Assembly (NCBI RefSeq): GCF_000377645.1 | Contig: NZ_KB898480.1 | Location: 1-64,000 of the forward strand | DNA length: 64,000 nt | Direction of reading: 5' to 3' | Source of the DNA: Thiomonas sp. FB-6 | GTDB lineage: Bacteria; Pseudomonadota; Gammaproteobacteria; Burkholderiales; Burkholderiaceae_C | Shown here: positions 14,221 through 20,463 of the stretch, piece after piece | How positions within the stretch are numbered: position 1 is the stretch's first letter | Layout of the letters: every line of letters begins with the position of its first letter | Translations under genes and position numbers: made by a program | The notes under the pieces: model-generated | What the model was told of the DNA's origin: nothing | The model's database searches: none | The model's input: the letters and a program-made list of their open reading frames with translations, nothing else

Positions 14221-16197
14221 TCAGCGTTCGTGCTTGCGCCGCGGTGCGGCGGCCTTGGCGCGCGGCGCGGCGCTGCGCGCGGGCGGCCGGGAAGCTCCCG
14301 CGCGGGGCGAATCCTTGTACGACGCGGATTCCTTGCGCGACGGGCGCGGCTCCGCGGCGGCGCTCTCCTCGGCCGGCGCCAGTTGCAGCGGCCGCCCCAG
14401 CACGCGCAGGCGTTGCAGCATGCGCAGCACGTCGCGCGGCATGTCGGCCGGCAGTTCCACCAGGCTGTAGTCGCGGCGAATCGCGATGTTGCCGATGCGG
14501 CTGTTGTCCATGCCCGTCTCGTTGGCGATGGCGCCCACCAGGTTGCGCACTTCCACGCCGTGTTCGCGCCCGATCTCCACGCGGTAGGTCTGCAGCGCGC
14601 CCGCCGGCGCACGCCGGCGCCGCGGCCCCTCGCCGTCGCCCTCATCCTGCGCCGCGCGCGAATGCTCGAAGTCCGCCAGCGCCTGCGCGGCCAGTTGCTC
14701 CAGGCTGCGCGGCGTGCCGGCCGGCGCGGGCCGGGCCGGGCGCGGCGCGGGCTCCTCGCCAGCAGCGCGGGTCTCGCGCACGGCGCGGCTTTCGTAGGGC
14801 TCGCGCATCGCGCGAGGGCGCGCGGCGGCCTCCTCGGCCCCCAGCAGCAGCGGCTTGCCGCCCTGCACCATGCTGGCCAGCGCGGCGGCGATCTCCACCG
14901 CCGGCACGTTGTGCTCGCGCTCGTAGCGCTCCACCAGGGCCAGGTAGGGGCGCAGCGCCTCGTCCTGCTCGCGCGTCTCGCTGATGCGCTCGAAAAAGCG
15001 CGCGGTGCGGCGGTCGTTCACCGCCTCCACGCTGGGCAGTTGCATCGGCTCGATGCGCTGGCGCGTGGCGCGTTCGATGGACTGCAGCAGGTAGCGCTCG
15101 CGCGGCGTGACGAACAGGATGGCCTGGCCGCTTCGCCCGGCACGCCCGGTGCGCCCGATGCGGTGCACGTAGGACTCGGTGTCGGTGGGAATGTCGTAGT
15201 TCACCACGTGGCTGATGCGATCGACGTCCAGGCCCCGCGCGGCCACGTCGGTGGCGACCAGGATGTCCACCTGCCCGTCCTTCAGCCGCTGCACCGTGCG
15301 CTCGCGCTGCGCCTGCTGGATGTCGCCGTTCAGCGCGGCGGTGGCGAAGCCGCGGGCCGCCAGCTTTTCCGCCAGTTCCTCGGTGGCCACCTTGGTGCGC
15401 GCGAACACGATCATGGCCTCGAAGGTCTCGACCTCGAGGATGCGGGTCAGCGCGTCGAGCTTGTGCATGCCGCTGACCATCCAGTAGCGCTGCTGCACGC
15501 CCGAGGCGGTACGCGTGCGCGCCTTGATGGTGATCTGCGCCGGCTCGCGCAGGTGGCGCTGCGCGATGGCGCGGATGGCGCTGGGCATGGTGGCCGAGAA
15601 CAGCGCAACCTGGCGCTGCGGCGGCGTGCTGGCGAGGATGCGCTCGACGTCGTCGATGAATCCCATGCGCAGCATCTCGTCGGCCTCGTCGAGCACCAGA
15701 TGGCGCAGCGAATCGAGCTTGAGGGTGCCGCGATCGAGGTGGTCGATGATGCGCCCGGGCGTGCCCACGACCACCTGGGCGCCGCGGCGCAGCGCCGCCA
15801 GCTGCGGCGTGTAGCTCTGCCCGCCGTAGACCGGAAGCACGTGGAAGCCGGGCAGATGCGAGGCGTAGCGCGAGAAGGCCTCGGCCACCTGGATCGCCAG
15901 TTCGCGCGTGGGCGCCAGCACCAGCGCCTGGGTTTCGCGCCGCGCCGCGTCCACGCGCGCCAGGATGGGCAGCGCGAAGGCGGCGGTCTTGCCGGTTCCG
16001 GTCTGCGCCTGGCCCAGCACGTCGCGCCCCTCCAGCAAGGGCGGGATGGTTGCTGCCTGGATGGGCGAGGGGCTTTCGTAGCCCACGTCGCGCAGCGCGC
16101 GCAGCAAGGCCTCGGGAAGGCCGAGATCGGCGAAGCCGATGACGGGCTCGGAGGGCGGGCCGTCGGAGACGGGGGACTGGGATTCGACGTCGGACAT
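14221..16197 (-). CDS. deaD: DEAD-box ATP-dependent RNA helicase (DeaD/CsdA-like)
   Basis: 658 residues from the ATG at 16197. Q motif with PIQAATIP, Walker A AQTGTGKT at 64-71, DEAD at 170-173, SAT at 201-203, and HRIGRTGRAGR in the second RecA domain. After about 470 comes a spacer, then a DbpA-type RNA-binding fold (VEVRNLVGAIANETGMDNSRIGNI) and a Lys/Arg-rich tail ending KHER. DeaD-like proteins unwind structured RNA in ribosome assembly and cold adaptation. The frame extends upstream to 16839, but that part is noncoding; the terminator at 16274-16300 lies between. Confidence 0.93.
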   Translation of the reverse strand: MSDVESQSPVSDGPPSEPVIGFADLGLPEALLRALRDVGYESPSPIQAATIPPLLEGRDVLGQAQTGTGKTAAFALPILARVDAARRETQALVLAPTRELAIQVAEAFSRYASHLPGFHVLPVYGGQSYTPQLAALRRGAQVVVGTPGRIIDHLDRGTLKLDSLRHLVLDEADEMLRMGFIDDVERILASTPPQRQVALFSATMPSAIRAIAQRHLREPAQITIKARTRTASGVQQRYWMVSGMHKLDALTRILEVETFEAMIVFARTKVATEELAEKLAARGFATAALNGDIQQAQRERTVQRLKDGQVDILVATDVAARGLDVDRISHVVNYDIPTDTESYVHRIGRTGRAGRSGQAILFVTPRERYLLQSIERATRQRIEPMQLPSVEAVNDRRTARFFERISETREQDEALRPYLALVERYEREHNVPAVEIAAALASMVQGGKPLLLGAEEAAARPRAMREPYESRAVRETRAAGEEPAPRPARPAPAGTPRSLEQLAAQALADFEHSRAAQDEGDGEGPRRRRAPAGALQTYRVEIGREHGVEVRNLVGAIANETGMDNSRIGNIAIRRDYSLVELPADMPRDVLRMLQRLRVLGRPLQLAPAEESAAAEPRPSRKESASYKDSPRAGASRPPARSAAPRAKAAAPRRKHER

Positions 16198-16273: not shown

Positions 16274-16300
16274 AAAAAAATGCCAAGCACGCGGCTTGGC
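16274..16300 (-). terminator. Strong intrinsic terminator behind the small exported protein gene
   Basis: On the minus strand, GCCAAGC-CGCGT-GCTTGGC (7-bp stem, 5-base loop) is followed by A and seven T. It lies 62 bases past the stop at 16362 and upstream of deaD, so it ends the transcript that starts at the sigma-54 promoter. Confidence 0.9.
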
Positions 16301-16361
16301 CAAGGGGGGATCGGAAGCCCCGCGATGCCTTCGGGCACCGTCGGGCAATGGGGGGGCGGGA

Positions 16362-16607
16362 TCAGTGCATGCCTTCGCCCGCGGCCGGCGCGCCCTGCGC
16401 CGGAGAACCGGAGGCCGCACCGCGCTCCTGCTGCGCGGACACGCCATGCGCCTCGGCGCCGGCCTGGGCCGGCGCGGCGGCCGACTGCGACTCGGCCTGA
16501 GCGGCCGCAGGCGCCTGTTCCGGGGGCATGCCCGCCGCCCACGCGCCCGCCCATGCACAGCAGCCTGCCAGTGCGAGGGTCAAGGTCCTGGAGCGAAACG
16601 CAATCAT
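16362..16607 (-). CDS. Small exported Ala/Gln-rich protein, candidate GlrR/sigma-54 target
   Basis: 81 residues. The ATG at 16607 sits behind AGGGAGTTCCGACC, a strong ribosome site. Residues 1-25 are a classical signal peptide: RSR, then a hydrophobic TLALAGCCAWAGAWAA core, with cleavage after AWA or WAA. The mature part is short, low in complexity, without cysteines, and rich in Ala, Gln, Glu, Gly and Pro; it ends GEGMH. No family is recognised. It is flanked by a consensus sigma-54 promoter (16675-16692), three GlrR-like boxes and its own terminator, so it forms a single-gene transcript of about 390 nt next to its presumed activator gene glrR. It might alternatively be a small RNA with a short ORF, but the signal peptide and ribosome site argue for a protein. 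Confidence 0.7.
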   Translation of the reverse strand: MIAFRSRTLTLALAGCCAWAGAWAAGMPPEQAPAAAQAESQSAAAPAQAGAEAHGVSAQQERGAASGSPAQGAPAAGEGMH

Positions 16608-16674
16608 GGTCGGAACTCCCTGCGGTCGCGGACCTTGCCGCGGCACATGCCGGAGCGGGTCTGCACCCACCATG

Positions 16675-16692
16675 AAGCAACCGCCGTGCCAG
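16675..16692 (-). promoter_or_regulatory. Sigma-54 (RpoN) promoter, -24/-12 elements
   Basis: The minus strand reads CTGGCACG-GCGG-TTGCTT, an exact match to the sigma-54 consensus YTGGCACG-N4-TTGCW. The GG falls at 16690-16689 (-25/-24) and the GC at 16678-16677 (-13/-12), predicting transcription from about 16665 and a 57-base leader to the ATG at 16607. Sigma-54 promoters need an AAA+ activator bound upstream; GlrR is encoded immediately upstream. Confidence 0.88.
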
Positions 16693-16710
16693 GCTGATTT
16701 TCCCCAGATA

Positions 16711-16728
16711 TATCGGCAACTTGGGACA
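16711..16728. promoter_or_regulatory. GlrR-box-like site 1, overlapping an IHF-like site
   Basis: TATC-N10-GACA, one mismatch from the enterobacterial GlrR (QseF) consensus TGTC-N10-GACA; centre about -54 relative to the predicted start. The same bases, TATCGGCAACTTG, match the IHF consensus WATCARNNNNTTR with one mismatch, so this may be an IHF bend site instead. Confidence 0.5.
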
Positions 16729-16786
16729 CTTCGGCCGCAAGGCGGCCGGATCCGGGGCGGAATTCGGGGGGCCGGCGGGCCCGTTT

Positions 16787-16804
16787 TGTCGCCGGGAGCC
16801 GACG
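16787..16804. promoter_or_regulatory. GlrR-box-like site 2
   Basis: TGTC-N10-GACG, one mismatch from TGTC-N10-GACA, centred near -130. It shares TTTTGTCGCCG with site 3, giving an 11-base direct repeat 63 bases apart. Confidence 0.6.
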
Positions 16805-16849
16805 CTTTGGGGCCCCGTGGGGCAAATCTGCGCCGCCAAAGGCCTTTTT

Positions 16850-16867
16850 TGTCGCCGTGGGACGACA
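16850..16867. promoter_or_regulatory. GlrR box, perfect site 3
   Basis: TGTC-N10-GACA, an exact match to the GlrR consensus, centred near -193 and 13 bases past the glrR stop codon. Confidence 0.72.
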
Positions 16868-16880
16868 GCGCCCCAGGGAC

Positions 16881-18226
<1,346 letters not shown>

Positions 18227-18230
<4 letters not shown>

Positions 18231-18964
18231 CGCGCCGGCCCCTTCGGCGGCGGCGGCTTCGGGGCGTGTTCCTGGCTACGGTTCTGCAATTGCACCTCCA
18301 GGTTCTTGATCTGGCCGATCTTGTCCTCCAGATCGGCGGCCTTGCGATTGGCTTTCACGAGGTCGGCGCGAGCCTGGGAAAGTTCCACGGTCTGACGGCT
18401 CAGGCGCTGCAGAACGCGGATGAACTGGCGGCTGGCGCGATCCTCGGTCAGGAAGTCCAGACCTCCAAGCAATTCGTGTGCCTGCGCGGCCTCTTCGATG
18501 GTGGGCGCGGCCCGCGCGATCAGCAGGTAGGCCAGTTCCAGGCGCTGCTCCGGGCGGCGGCGCGCGCCCAGCGCCTGCAGTTGCTGCTGGCGCTGGTTGG
18601 CGGAAGCCTGGCTCATCGCGGAGATCTGGCGCAGCAGCTGCGCGATGGCCGGCATGCCCAGCGGAGCGCTCGCGGCGCCCGATTCGACGCCTCCAGGCGA
18701 CAGCTCCGCCGCCTCGGATGCGGTCTCGGATGCGGTCTCGGATGCGGACTCGGATGCGGCCCCGGATGCGGCCGCTGCCGCGAAGGGCGCGCCGCCGGGC
18801 CGCGAAACGCCCGCGCGCGGCGCGCTGGCCCCGGGCGCGGCCGGCGCACCGGGGGTTGCCGGCGGCACCGCGCAGGCGCCGAGCCCGGCGGCCAGCGCCA
18901 GGGGCAGCGCGCGCAGGACCAGGCGCGGGGAGCGCGGAACGAACACTGGGAGGGTCATGGTCAC
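18227..18964 (-). CDS. qseG: QseG-like (YfhG) outer-membrane lipoprotein of the QseEGF system
   Basis: 245 residues. Signal peptide ending in the lipobox LGAC (lipidated C31), then a low-complexity Ala/Pro/Ser linker that includes a SETASETASE repeat, then a helical domain (about 100-230) with heptad-like ELAYLLIARAAPTIEEA and a C-terminal coiled coil (KANRKAADLEDKIGQIKNLE). Size, lipoprotein signal, helical character and position between kinase and regulator match QseG, which in enterobacteria holds and controls the kinase QseE from the outer membrane. Overlaps neighbours by 4 bases on both sides. Confidence 0.85.
18714..18773 (-). repeat. Five 12-bp tandem repeats coding a Ser/Glu/Thr/Ala linker in qseG
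   Basis: Units of TCGGATGCGGTC type, four near-identical and a fifth diverged (CCGGATGCGGCC). Twelve bases keep the frame, so copy-number change would lengthen or shorten the lipoprotein linker by four residues without breaking the gene. Confidence 0.85.
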
Positions 18965-20463
18965 GTGGGCGTGGGGTTCCGGGCCGGCGCCGCGAAGGCG
19001 GGCGGGACGTGGTCGTGCAGGTGCGGAAGGCGCACGGTAAAGCAGGCCCCGCCGCCCTCGGATGATTCACCAAGCTGGATGCGTCCGCCGTGAAGCGTGG
19101 CGTATTCCTGCGCGATGGCCAGGCCCAGCCCGTTGCCCGGGGCGGCGCCCGCCGGCTGGCGCATGCCCTGGAAAAAAGGCTCGAACAGGTGTTCCCGGTC
19201 CTGCTCGGCCACCCCGGGCCCCTGGTCGCAGACGCTGACCGTGACGGCCTCCTCGTCGTCGCGCATCTGGATGCGCACCACGCCCCCCGCGGGGCTGAAA
19301 CGCATGGCGTTGATCAGCAGGTTCTCGAACAGGGTGTCGAGCTTGCCCTGGTCGGCCTGCAGCGCCGCGGCCTCGCCGTCGATGCGCACGGCCACGTGCT
19401 TGGCCCGCAGCGCCAGTTCGTTGCGCCGTACCAGCGAGGCCAGCAGTTCGTTCAGGTTCACGCCGGCCGACACCAGCGGGTCCAGCCGGCGCTGCGCGCG
19501 GCTGTAGTCGATCAGGTTCTCGATGCGCTGCTGCAGGTCGCGCGCGTTGCCGCGCATGATGGTGCCGATCTCGCGCTGCTGCGCGCTCAGCGGCCCCGCC
19601 ACGCCGTCGAGCAGCAGTTCCACCCCCTCGCGCAGCGAGGCCAGCGGAGTCTTGAGTTCATGCGACACGTGGCGCAGGAAGCGCTGCTTCTGCTCGTCGG
19701 TCTCGCGCAGGCGCCGGCGCAGCCAGTCCAGCTGATGGCCCAGTTGCACCAGGTCGCGCGGGCCGCGCACCTGCGGCTGCGGCTGCAGGTCGCCGGCGCC
19801 GAGCTTGCGGATCGACTGGTCGATCTGGCGCAGCGGGCGCGTGAGCACCCACGACAGCAAAGCCGCGATGAGCACCGACAGCAGCAAGGCCGCCCCGGCC
19901 TGCAGCAGCAGCGCTGCGCGCAGGGTGCGCGACTGCCGGCCCAGATCGCTGACCTGGCGGTCGACCAGCAGGTTTCCCGCGCTCAGGATGCGGTCGATGC
20001 TCGAGGCCAGTTCCGCGAAGCGCGGCGCGAAGGCGTCGAAGCGCGGCAGGTCGGCCGGCCCCGCGCCGCCGAGTTCTTCGTACAAGGCGGCCTCGCGGGT
20101 GGCGATGCGCTGCAGCCTGGCCTGTTCCTGCGCGCCGAAAGGCATGGCCTGCAAGGTGCGCAGCTCGGCCTGCAGCGCCCGGTGCGCATCGCGCATGCCC
20201 ACGCGCAGCTGCGGGTCCTGCAGCACGTAGTACTGCCCGGCCGAGCGCTGCAGCGCCGACAGGTCCTCGGACATCTGGCGCGTGGTGCGGGTGACGTCGA
20301 CGGTGATGCGGATGGCCTGGCGGGTCTGCAGCGCCAGGCGCTGCTGCGCATAGGCCGTGTAGAGCATGCCCACGACCAGCGGCAGCATGACCAACGCGAA
20401 GGCGGCCAGCAGCAGCGCATGGAAGGAGCGCGGATACGGTGGGGTCGGGGACTTCAGCGGCAT
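18961..20463 (-). CDS. glrK: Sensor histidine kinase GlrK (QseE)
   Basis: 500 residues from the ATG at 20463; the frame upstream is not protein-like. First membrane helix about 13-37, periplasmic helical domain 38-185, second helix about 184-206, HAMP linker, phospho-acceptor H268 in HVSHELKTPLASL, then the ATPase domain with N-box ENLLINAMRFSP, GPGVAEQD and GNGLGLAIAQEY. The long helical sensor domain and the qseG-glrR neighbours identify GlrK/QseE, which responds to envelope conditions. 73 bases separate it from rlmJ upstream on the same strand. Confidence 0.9.
   Translation of the reverse strand: MPLKSPTPPYPRSFHALLLAAFALVMLPLVVGMLYTAYAQQRLALQTRQAIRITVDVTRTTRQMSEDLSALQRSAGQYYVLQDPQLRVGMRDAHRALQAELRTLQAMPFGAQEQARLQRIATREAALYEELGGAGPADLPRFDAFAPRFAELASSIDRILSAGNLLVDRQVSDLGRQSRTLRAALLLQAGAALLLSVLIAALLSWVLTRPLRQIDQSIRKLGAGDLQPQPQVRGPRDLVQLGHQLDWLRRRLRETDEQKQRFLRHVSHELKTPLASLREGVELLLDGVAGPLSAQQREIGTIMRGNARDLQQRIENLIDYSRAQRRLDPLVSAGVNLNELLASLVRRNELALRAKHVAVRIDGEAAALQADQGKLDTLFENLLINAMRFSPAGGVVRIQMRDDEEAVTVSVCDQGPGVAEQDREHLFEPFFQGMRQPAGAAPGNGLGLAIAQEYATLHGGRIQLGESSEGGGACFTVRLPHLHDHVPPAFAAPARNPTPT

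Follow-up and report, generated by a model that had tools for sequence, protein, structure and literature searches.

What does GlrR control from the interval directly behind its own gene? In enterobacteria, GlrR drives the small RNA GlmY and rpoE. In the window (the whole stretch of DNA analysed, 64,000 nt), glrR, a candidate transcription unit and deaD were all found on the minus strand, with the unit filling the glrR-deaD interval (Table 1). A preliminary description of the locus had proposed that the unit is a dedicated GlrR/sigma-54 output beside qseEGF and that its product is an exported protein. Overall, this description was confirmed in part: the promoter, boxes 1 and 2, the ORF and the terminator held up, while a third box did not. 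Conservation of the sequence, within the genus and beyond it, strongly supports a dedicated GlrR/sigma-54 output beside qseEGF, while an exported protein as that output is only half supported.

Table 1. Coordinates of the unit and its neighbouring genes in the window
Feature	Position	Strand	Remark
deaD, next downstream gene	14221..16197	-	same strand as the unit
Terminator T-run	16274..16280	-	after the hairpin
Constant 3' element CCCCCC-TTG-GCCAAGC-CGCGT-GCTTGGC	16282..16309	-	C-rich part 16301-16309; hairpin 16282-16300
Small exported protein ORF, 81 codons	16362..16607	-	signal peptide by eye
Predicted transcription start	16665 (+/-2)	-	placed from the -12 element
Sigma-54 promoter TGGCACGGCGGTTGCT	16676..16691	-	sole exact match in the window
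IHF-like site TATCGGCAACTTG	16711..16723	+	one mismatch to WATCARNNNNTTR
GlrR-type box 2	16787..16804		one mismatch; centre near -130
GlrR-type box 1, exact TGTC-N10-GACA	16850..16867		centre near -193; counterpart in 27/27 genus loci
glrR (qseF), response regulator and sigma-54 activator	16881..18230	-	best NCBIfam model GlrR
qseG-like lipoprotein	18227..18964	-	position and LGAC lipobox by eye
glrK (qseE)-like sensor kinase	18961..20463	-	profile matches; start picked by eye

The predicted switch behind glrR

The glrR product scored 566 bits against the NCBIfam GlrR model, under the model cut-off of 763. For the qseG-like lipoprotein, family matches were absent in both Pfam and NCBIfam. The predicted ends of the unit agree with the transcript of about 390 nt estimated earlier, provided that transcription starts 12 bp after the GC of the -12 element.

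The promoter reads TGGCACG-N4-TTGCT and had been called perfect; it was indeed the only zero-mismatch match in the window, where the sigma-54 pattern at up to two mismatches occurred 18 times vs. 15.7 expected. Box 1 (exact) and box 2 (one mismatch) were likewise recovered by the pattern scan. Single boxes were rejected as evidence, their counts being near chance both in the window (19 at up to one mismatch vs. 13.8 +- 3.9 expected) and genome-wide (51 exact boxes forward vs. 47 in a backwards control), and the decision was left to a comparison with relatives.

GlrR matches at E up to 1e-120 were obtained in 27 of the 28 genus genomes. At all 27 loci, glrR was followed by a sigma-54 promoter at up to two mismatches and by two boxes with the core GTCG-N8-CGAC, 63 or 64 bp apart. 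When the full box at one mismatch was required, four loci (L128, L129, L131, and L132) showed a single box near the promoter, and two of these (L131 and L132) contained an additional distant match. G017 was the sole genus genome without the GlrR match, the box pair and the 3' element; because glrR and the unit adjoin, it may merely miss that contig. As a check, the preliminary description had named conservation of the boxes and the -24/-12 element in relatives, and these were kept in 27/27 genus loci and in 29/57 loci outside the genus. In this comparison of sequences, what stands out is the conserved box pair together with the promoter.

A third GlrR box, placed by the preliminary description at 16711-16728, was unsupported. 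At one mismatch, that position was empty in every other genus locus, and it overlaps the IHF-like site. L130 contained a third box match, located at another place than the equivalent of 16711-16728.

The stretch between box 2 and the promoter was scanned at up to one mismatch for WATCARNNNNTTR, which we take to be the IHF consensus. With this assumed consensus, IHF-like sites were found in 25/27 genus loci vs. 5.3% in shuffles; L113 and L125 had none in the scanned stretch. Twenty loci contained the site 31-32 bp before the promoter in the window orientation, two (L123 and L124) contained it at 44 bp in that same orientation, and three (L120, L121, and L122) contained it elsewhere in the opposite orientation.

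Small exported proteins in the genus

The 81-residue ORF was borne out, its start being signal-peptide-like by eye, with the signal peptide ending in AWA before AGMPPE. The mature product had been described as unlike any recognised family, and this ORF had no Pfam or NCBIfam match; the Pfam BON domain (PF04972) was matched neither by it nor by the L128 ORF. A longer in-frame ATG at 16673 was dropped, being upstream of the predicted transcription start.

Judged by eye, 21 of the 27 genus loci had, after the promoter, an ORF that contains AAGMP and begins like a signal peptide, and the cleavage-site motif of these ORFs was AAGMP[AP][ED]. Among listed ORFs of at least 35 codons, none of this kind was seen by eye in the other six loci (L118, L119, L123, L124, L125, and L137). 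On the GlrR tree, this distribution needs at least two changes; the ORF would have been lost at least twice if the common ancestor had it.

Codon-level constraint was a further check named in the preliminary description. The ORF alignment comprised 20 sequences selected by a script that required AAGMP, leaving out L120 (start unclear). AAGMP codons varied among them while the residues stayed, a pattern pointing to protein-level constraint. Using our own Nei-Gojobori script on these AAGMP-selected ORFs, mean pN/pS was 0.61 in the window's clade (seven sequences), 0.34 in a group of eight, 0.68 in a group of three, and 0.71 in one pair. The exported protein as output is only half supported, given pN/pS values of 0.34-0.71 and 6/27 loci in which the ORF was not seen, whereas the RNA's 3' end was constant in all 27; the value of 0.61 in the window's clade counts against the peptide. 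Clear relatives of the window ORF (E up to 1e-21) turned up in just 5 of the 40 other genomes; across clades, the peptides are therefore linked by their place, signal peptide, and AAGMP.

Other units of this type also occur in the genus. The box-pair pattern is noisy, the backwards control exceeding the pattern in 21/28 genomes (11 vs. 3 in the window's genome), and attention was therefore confined to pairs with a promoter-like site and an ORF behind them, drawn from 14 fetched regions. A BON-type exported protein with the start M[NT]TNSRLGR was encoded in G011, G022, and G006 (loci L169, L170, and L178; Pfam was run on G011 only). Its short-ORF counterparts, of 63-88 aa and with similar starts (TNSR.GR or THSRLGR), were found in G012, G015, G010, G023, and G016 (two units), and partly in G000; these loci were L171-L174, L176, L177, and L167. 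Six of the seven end in QVPPT, the exception being L167 (partly read), and no BON domain was apparent by eye in these ORFs.

An exported peptide of 47-49 aa (MTASRKIARV...) was found behind a GlrR-type box pair and a sigma-54-like promoter in G000, G002, G043, and G015 (L168, L175, L179, L180, and G000:C16:61383-61806), with matches in 11 of the 28 genus genomes. G000 contained two homologues, the second unit having the promoter TAGCACG-N4-TTGCT with a weaker -24. All of these further units are without the C6 element, which is single-copy. The window ORF thus seems not to be the sole exported-protein target, since other genus units with GlrR-type boxes seem to drive small exported proteins as well.

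The same layout with other cargo outside the genus

The sample outside the genus comprised 57 loci: 29 named loci (L001-L028 and L040) and 28 family loci (L139-L166). The named loci were those at least 50% identical to GlrR out of 80 retained records, whose identity to GlrR was at most 65%. In the family search, 31 of 120 genomes had a GlrR match (E up to 1e-120), two being genus members; the G512 match and the second G462 match yielded no locus.

The layout was defined as two boxes 55-80 bp apart with a promoter 60-140 bp beyond. It was present in 29/57 loci vs. 0/2850 base-shuffled sequences, namely in 8 of the 29 named loci and 21 of the 28 family loci. Eight named sources were represented: Dechloromonas, a Methylophilaceae MAG, Herbaspirillum, Rubrivivax, Chitinimonas, Duganella, Janthinobacterium, and a Desulfobulbaceae MAG. 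Distances from box 2 to the promoter were 79-84 bp (5 loci), 91-93 bp (2), 103-105 bp (3), and 110-113 bp (19). These steps of about one helix turn match what would be expected for helical phasing. An IHF-like site was located 30-33 bp before the promoter in 28 of the 29 layout loci, L139 being the one locus in which the scan found none; the shuffle rate for any such site in the stretch was 12.9%.

Cargo was assigned by searching the next 1.8 kb downstream, on the same strand, with tblastn, the first genes being inspected only in part. By this measure, 19 of the 29 layout loci carried opgG/opgH: L005, L141-L147, L150, L151, L153, L154, L156, L157, L159-L162, and L166. Seven carried a BON-domain gene (six by tblastn, and L001 by Pfam), and L016, L139, and L164 carried neither within the downstream 1.8 kb searched by tblastn. 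Additionally, opgG/opgH followed glrR in five family loci that failed the layout test (L140, L148, L158, L163, and L165). Pfam confirmed MdoG and BON on single representatives. An MdoH fragment matched in NCBIfam at E 3e-76, yet under the whole-protein cut-off, and two MdoH fragments matched nothing in Pfam. The order box-box-IHF-promoter ahead of opgG/opgH suggests that GlrR may control periplasmic glucan synthesis in many genera.

Two further arrangements were seen in this sample. In L016 (the Desulfobulbaceae MAG), the same layout after glrR stands ahead of a lipoprotein-like ORF. In L001 (Dechloromonas) and L008 (Propionivibrio), exact box pairs about 65 bp apart occur some 2.1-2.4 kb ahead of glrR, near the presumed start of the kinase gene.

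The constant 3' end and the probable output of the unit

The strong terminator of the preliminary description was recovered as a hairpin and T-run (Table 1). In all 27 genus loci, the unit closed with CCCCCCTTGGCCAAGC, a loop of 4-5 bases, GCTTGGC, A (26 loci) or T (one locus), and a T-run, giving 30 constant columns. The nine bases before the hairpin, CCCCCCTTG, were constant in 27/27 loci. The exact 3' element occurred as one copy in each of 27 of the 28 genus genomes, G017 having none. In wider samples, it was present in only 1 of 399 order genomes and 1 of 369 class genomes, the window's own genome both times.

An unlikely reading, and the one that keeps the most weight beside ours, is that the exported peptide alone is functional and the 3' end is merely a well-kept terminator. 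The ORF's presence in 21/27 loci, each with AAGMP, and pN/pS values below 1 favour it, as do the other genus units that encode small exported proteins without this 3' end. A control terminator, that of degP, was also partly kept: across the 27 loci, CAAGCGATTGCGGCGGGG was exact in 12, including all seven of the window's clade, with the script taking the longest perfect hairpin and so possibly picking different hairpins among loci. Since the degP terminator is well kept in the window's clade, stem conservation alone is unremarkable. The degP stem and flank vary from clade to clade, however, whereas the nine constant bases of the unit are unneeded for termination, and boxes, promoter, and 3' element all remain in the six loci in which the ORF was not seen. 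Judging from these alignments, two things are remarkable: that the nine bases preceding the stem never change, and that this holds across all clades.

Predicted transcripts of the six ORF-less loci were calculated as the distance from promoter to terminator end, less the 26 bases that precede the expected start. Their lengths were about 132 nt (L118), 144 nt (L119), 102 nt (L137), 76 nt (L123 and L124), and 71 nt (L125).

It is very unlikely that the ORF is decaying, a BON- or opg-type gene on its way to nothing, with the RNA end kept by slow local evolution. The slot does carry BON or opgG/opgH genes outside the genus, and a further GlrR-type unit has a BON-type protein gene in three genomes but short ORFs elsewhere. 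Against this, just 5 of 126 four-fold sites were constant in the adjacent glrR of the same genomes, and pairwise four-fold identity was 0.52-0.75 in eight pairs; with its four-fold sites so diverged, the locus does not evolve slowly. Least probable of all is a 3' hairpin serving as an attenuator in the deaD leader, with the unit as a long regulated leader: deaD starts about 76 bp past the T-run on the same strand and lies beside the unit in 16/27 loci, but this reading is lowered by the 11/27 loci in which deaD was not found in the fetched flank and the element is unchanged.

The reading that we prefer, and hold to be rather probable, is a GlrR/IHF/sigma-54 unit with a small RNA as its constant product: its 3' end would act as a base-pairing small RNA, and its RNA would encode an exported peptide where the optional ORF is present. 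In single-strand folds, the mean unpaired probability was 0.63 for the first C of the C-run and 0.66-0.90 for the other eight bases of CCCCCCUUG. The C-run was partly paired in L123, L124, L126, L130, and L131, with a mixed picture in L115 and L136; pairing of the first C was also seen in some others, e.g., L112 and L114. The traits of CpxQ- and GlnZ-type RNAs (conserved 3' end, accessible seed, intrinsic terminator) were all found here, with accessibility poor or mixed in 7/27 folds. Exact matches to the 10-mer CAAGGGGGGA were sought as targets in eight genomes, and the 26 places among the matches listed, units included, showed no recurrence at a gene start, which counts against the preferred reading.

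Known RNA families were rejected, all Rfam matches being sub-threshold. With E values of up to 5 allowed, the window unit did not match the GlmY/GlmZ model, and none of 12 relatives matched it. SorX (RF02784) reached 20.8 bits vs. a threshold of 46.6 (E 0.012) and was not listed in the 12 relatives. Beyond the unit of one genus locus (L134:602-649), there was a sub-threshold match to the Pseudomonas sRNA P10 (28.5 vs. 37 bits).

Among sRNAs taken from the 3' end of an mRNA, cpxP/CpxQ is counted as the envelope example. A sigma-54 mRNA releasing an sRNA from its 3' end is described for glnA/GlnZ (PMC9731577, which also names cpxP/CpxQ). Like both of these, the unit would be a two-component-driven mRNA with a predicted protein and a 3'-end sRNA ending in the terminator; unlike them, it keeps its 3' end in some species that lack the ORF.

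QseF boxes read TGTC-N10-GACA, and in enterobacteria the QseF/sigma-54-driven sRNA glmY lies beside qseEGF (PMC6075780, PMC8745638), its sigma-54 promoter having putative IHF sites (PMC8745638). The unit resembles glmY in its regulator, TGTC-N10-GACA boxes, sigma-54 promoter, and predicted RNA output adjoining the regulator operon. It differs in standing after glrR rather than before the kinase gene and in having an ORF in most species, and it has no GlmY/GlmZ match in Rfam.

Bordetella pertussis S17 is released by cleavage of an RNA containing a small ORF and sits between a glycosyltransferase gene and coq7 under a sigma-A promoter (PMC11722255). Double-hairpin RNAs such as ncS27 are reported from Burkholderia cenocepacia (PMC5688073), and C/U-rich sRNAs of B. 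cenocepacia and B. pertussis have been proposed to cover G-rich ribosome-binding sites (PMC5688073, PMC11722255). The unit shares with S17 and ncS27 a C/U-rich stretch beside a terminator hairpin and its occurrence in Betaproteobacteria; unlike S17, it has a sigma-54 promoter and stands beside glrR. The unit had no RF02278 match. With the opgG/opgH and BON genes behind glrR elsewhere, it shares the box-box-IHF-promoter layout and the place, but the coding content is unrelated and the exact C6 element is absent from the 398 other order genomes.

The qseEGF operon occurs in Betaproteobacteria, and QseG is reported to activate QseE (PMC12691602); binding sites of sigma-54 activators, GlrR among them, have been predicted in Acidithiobacillia (PMC12194929). 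The unit, the layout after glrR, and GlrR control of opgGH were all undescribed in the excerpts of PMC11722255, PMC5688073, PMC6075780, PMC12194929, PMC8895600, PMC3162934, PMC12691602, PMC9731577, and PMC8745638. Known, then, are the QseF boxes, glmY beside qseEGF, and a sigma-54 mRNA releasing an sRNA. New would be a different RNA, on the other side of the operon and with an optional ORF, under a GlmY-like regulator and logic. Nor did the excerpts of the literature turned up mention a cargo-swapping slot in Betaproteobacteria.

The switch, the ORF, the constant 3' end, and the ORF-less versions are supported by the sequence, and the preferred reading would join them as follows. GlrK with QseG would sense an envelope signal, the unit being an output of the GlrK-QseG-GlrR system. 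Phosphorylated GlrR would bind the two upstream boxes, IHF, at its site some 32 bp ahead of the promoter, would bend the DNA, and the sigma-54 polymerase would be driven by GlrR. The resulting RNA of about 390 nt would encode a short exported (periplasmic) protein with the mature start AGMP[AP][ED]. Its C6-UUG and terminator hairpin end, either processed or within the RNA, could mask G-rich ribosome-binding sites of target RNAs by base-pairing, possibly in an Hfq-dependent manner and with an effect on the envelope. Where a species lacks the ORF, this promoter would directly make a short, apparently non-coding RNA. A bolder form, on which we are evenly divided, is that, in a genus of Burkholderiales, an sRNA with no sequence relation to GlmY is GlrR's private RNA output, its constant part being the C6-UUG terminator end, that the peptide ORF is an optional passenger, and that the cargo of the slot is swapped among glucan synthesis, BON proteins, peptides, and RNA.

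If this is true, GlrR outside the enterobacteria keeps one private, precisely spaced switch beside its own gene, and the cargo of that switch is exchanged among envelope functions, in one genus being an RNA with or without a peptide. GlrK/QseG sensing and control would become testable in Betaproteobacteria, and GlrR control of periplasmic glucan synthesis would be predicted for many of them. The natural peptide-free versions would help to separate the function of the RNA from that of the peptide.
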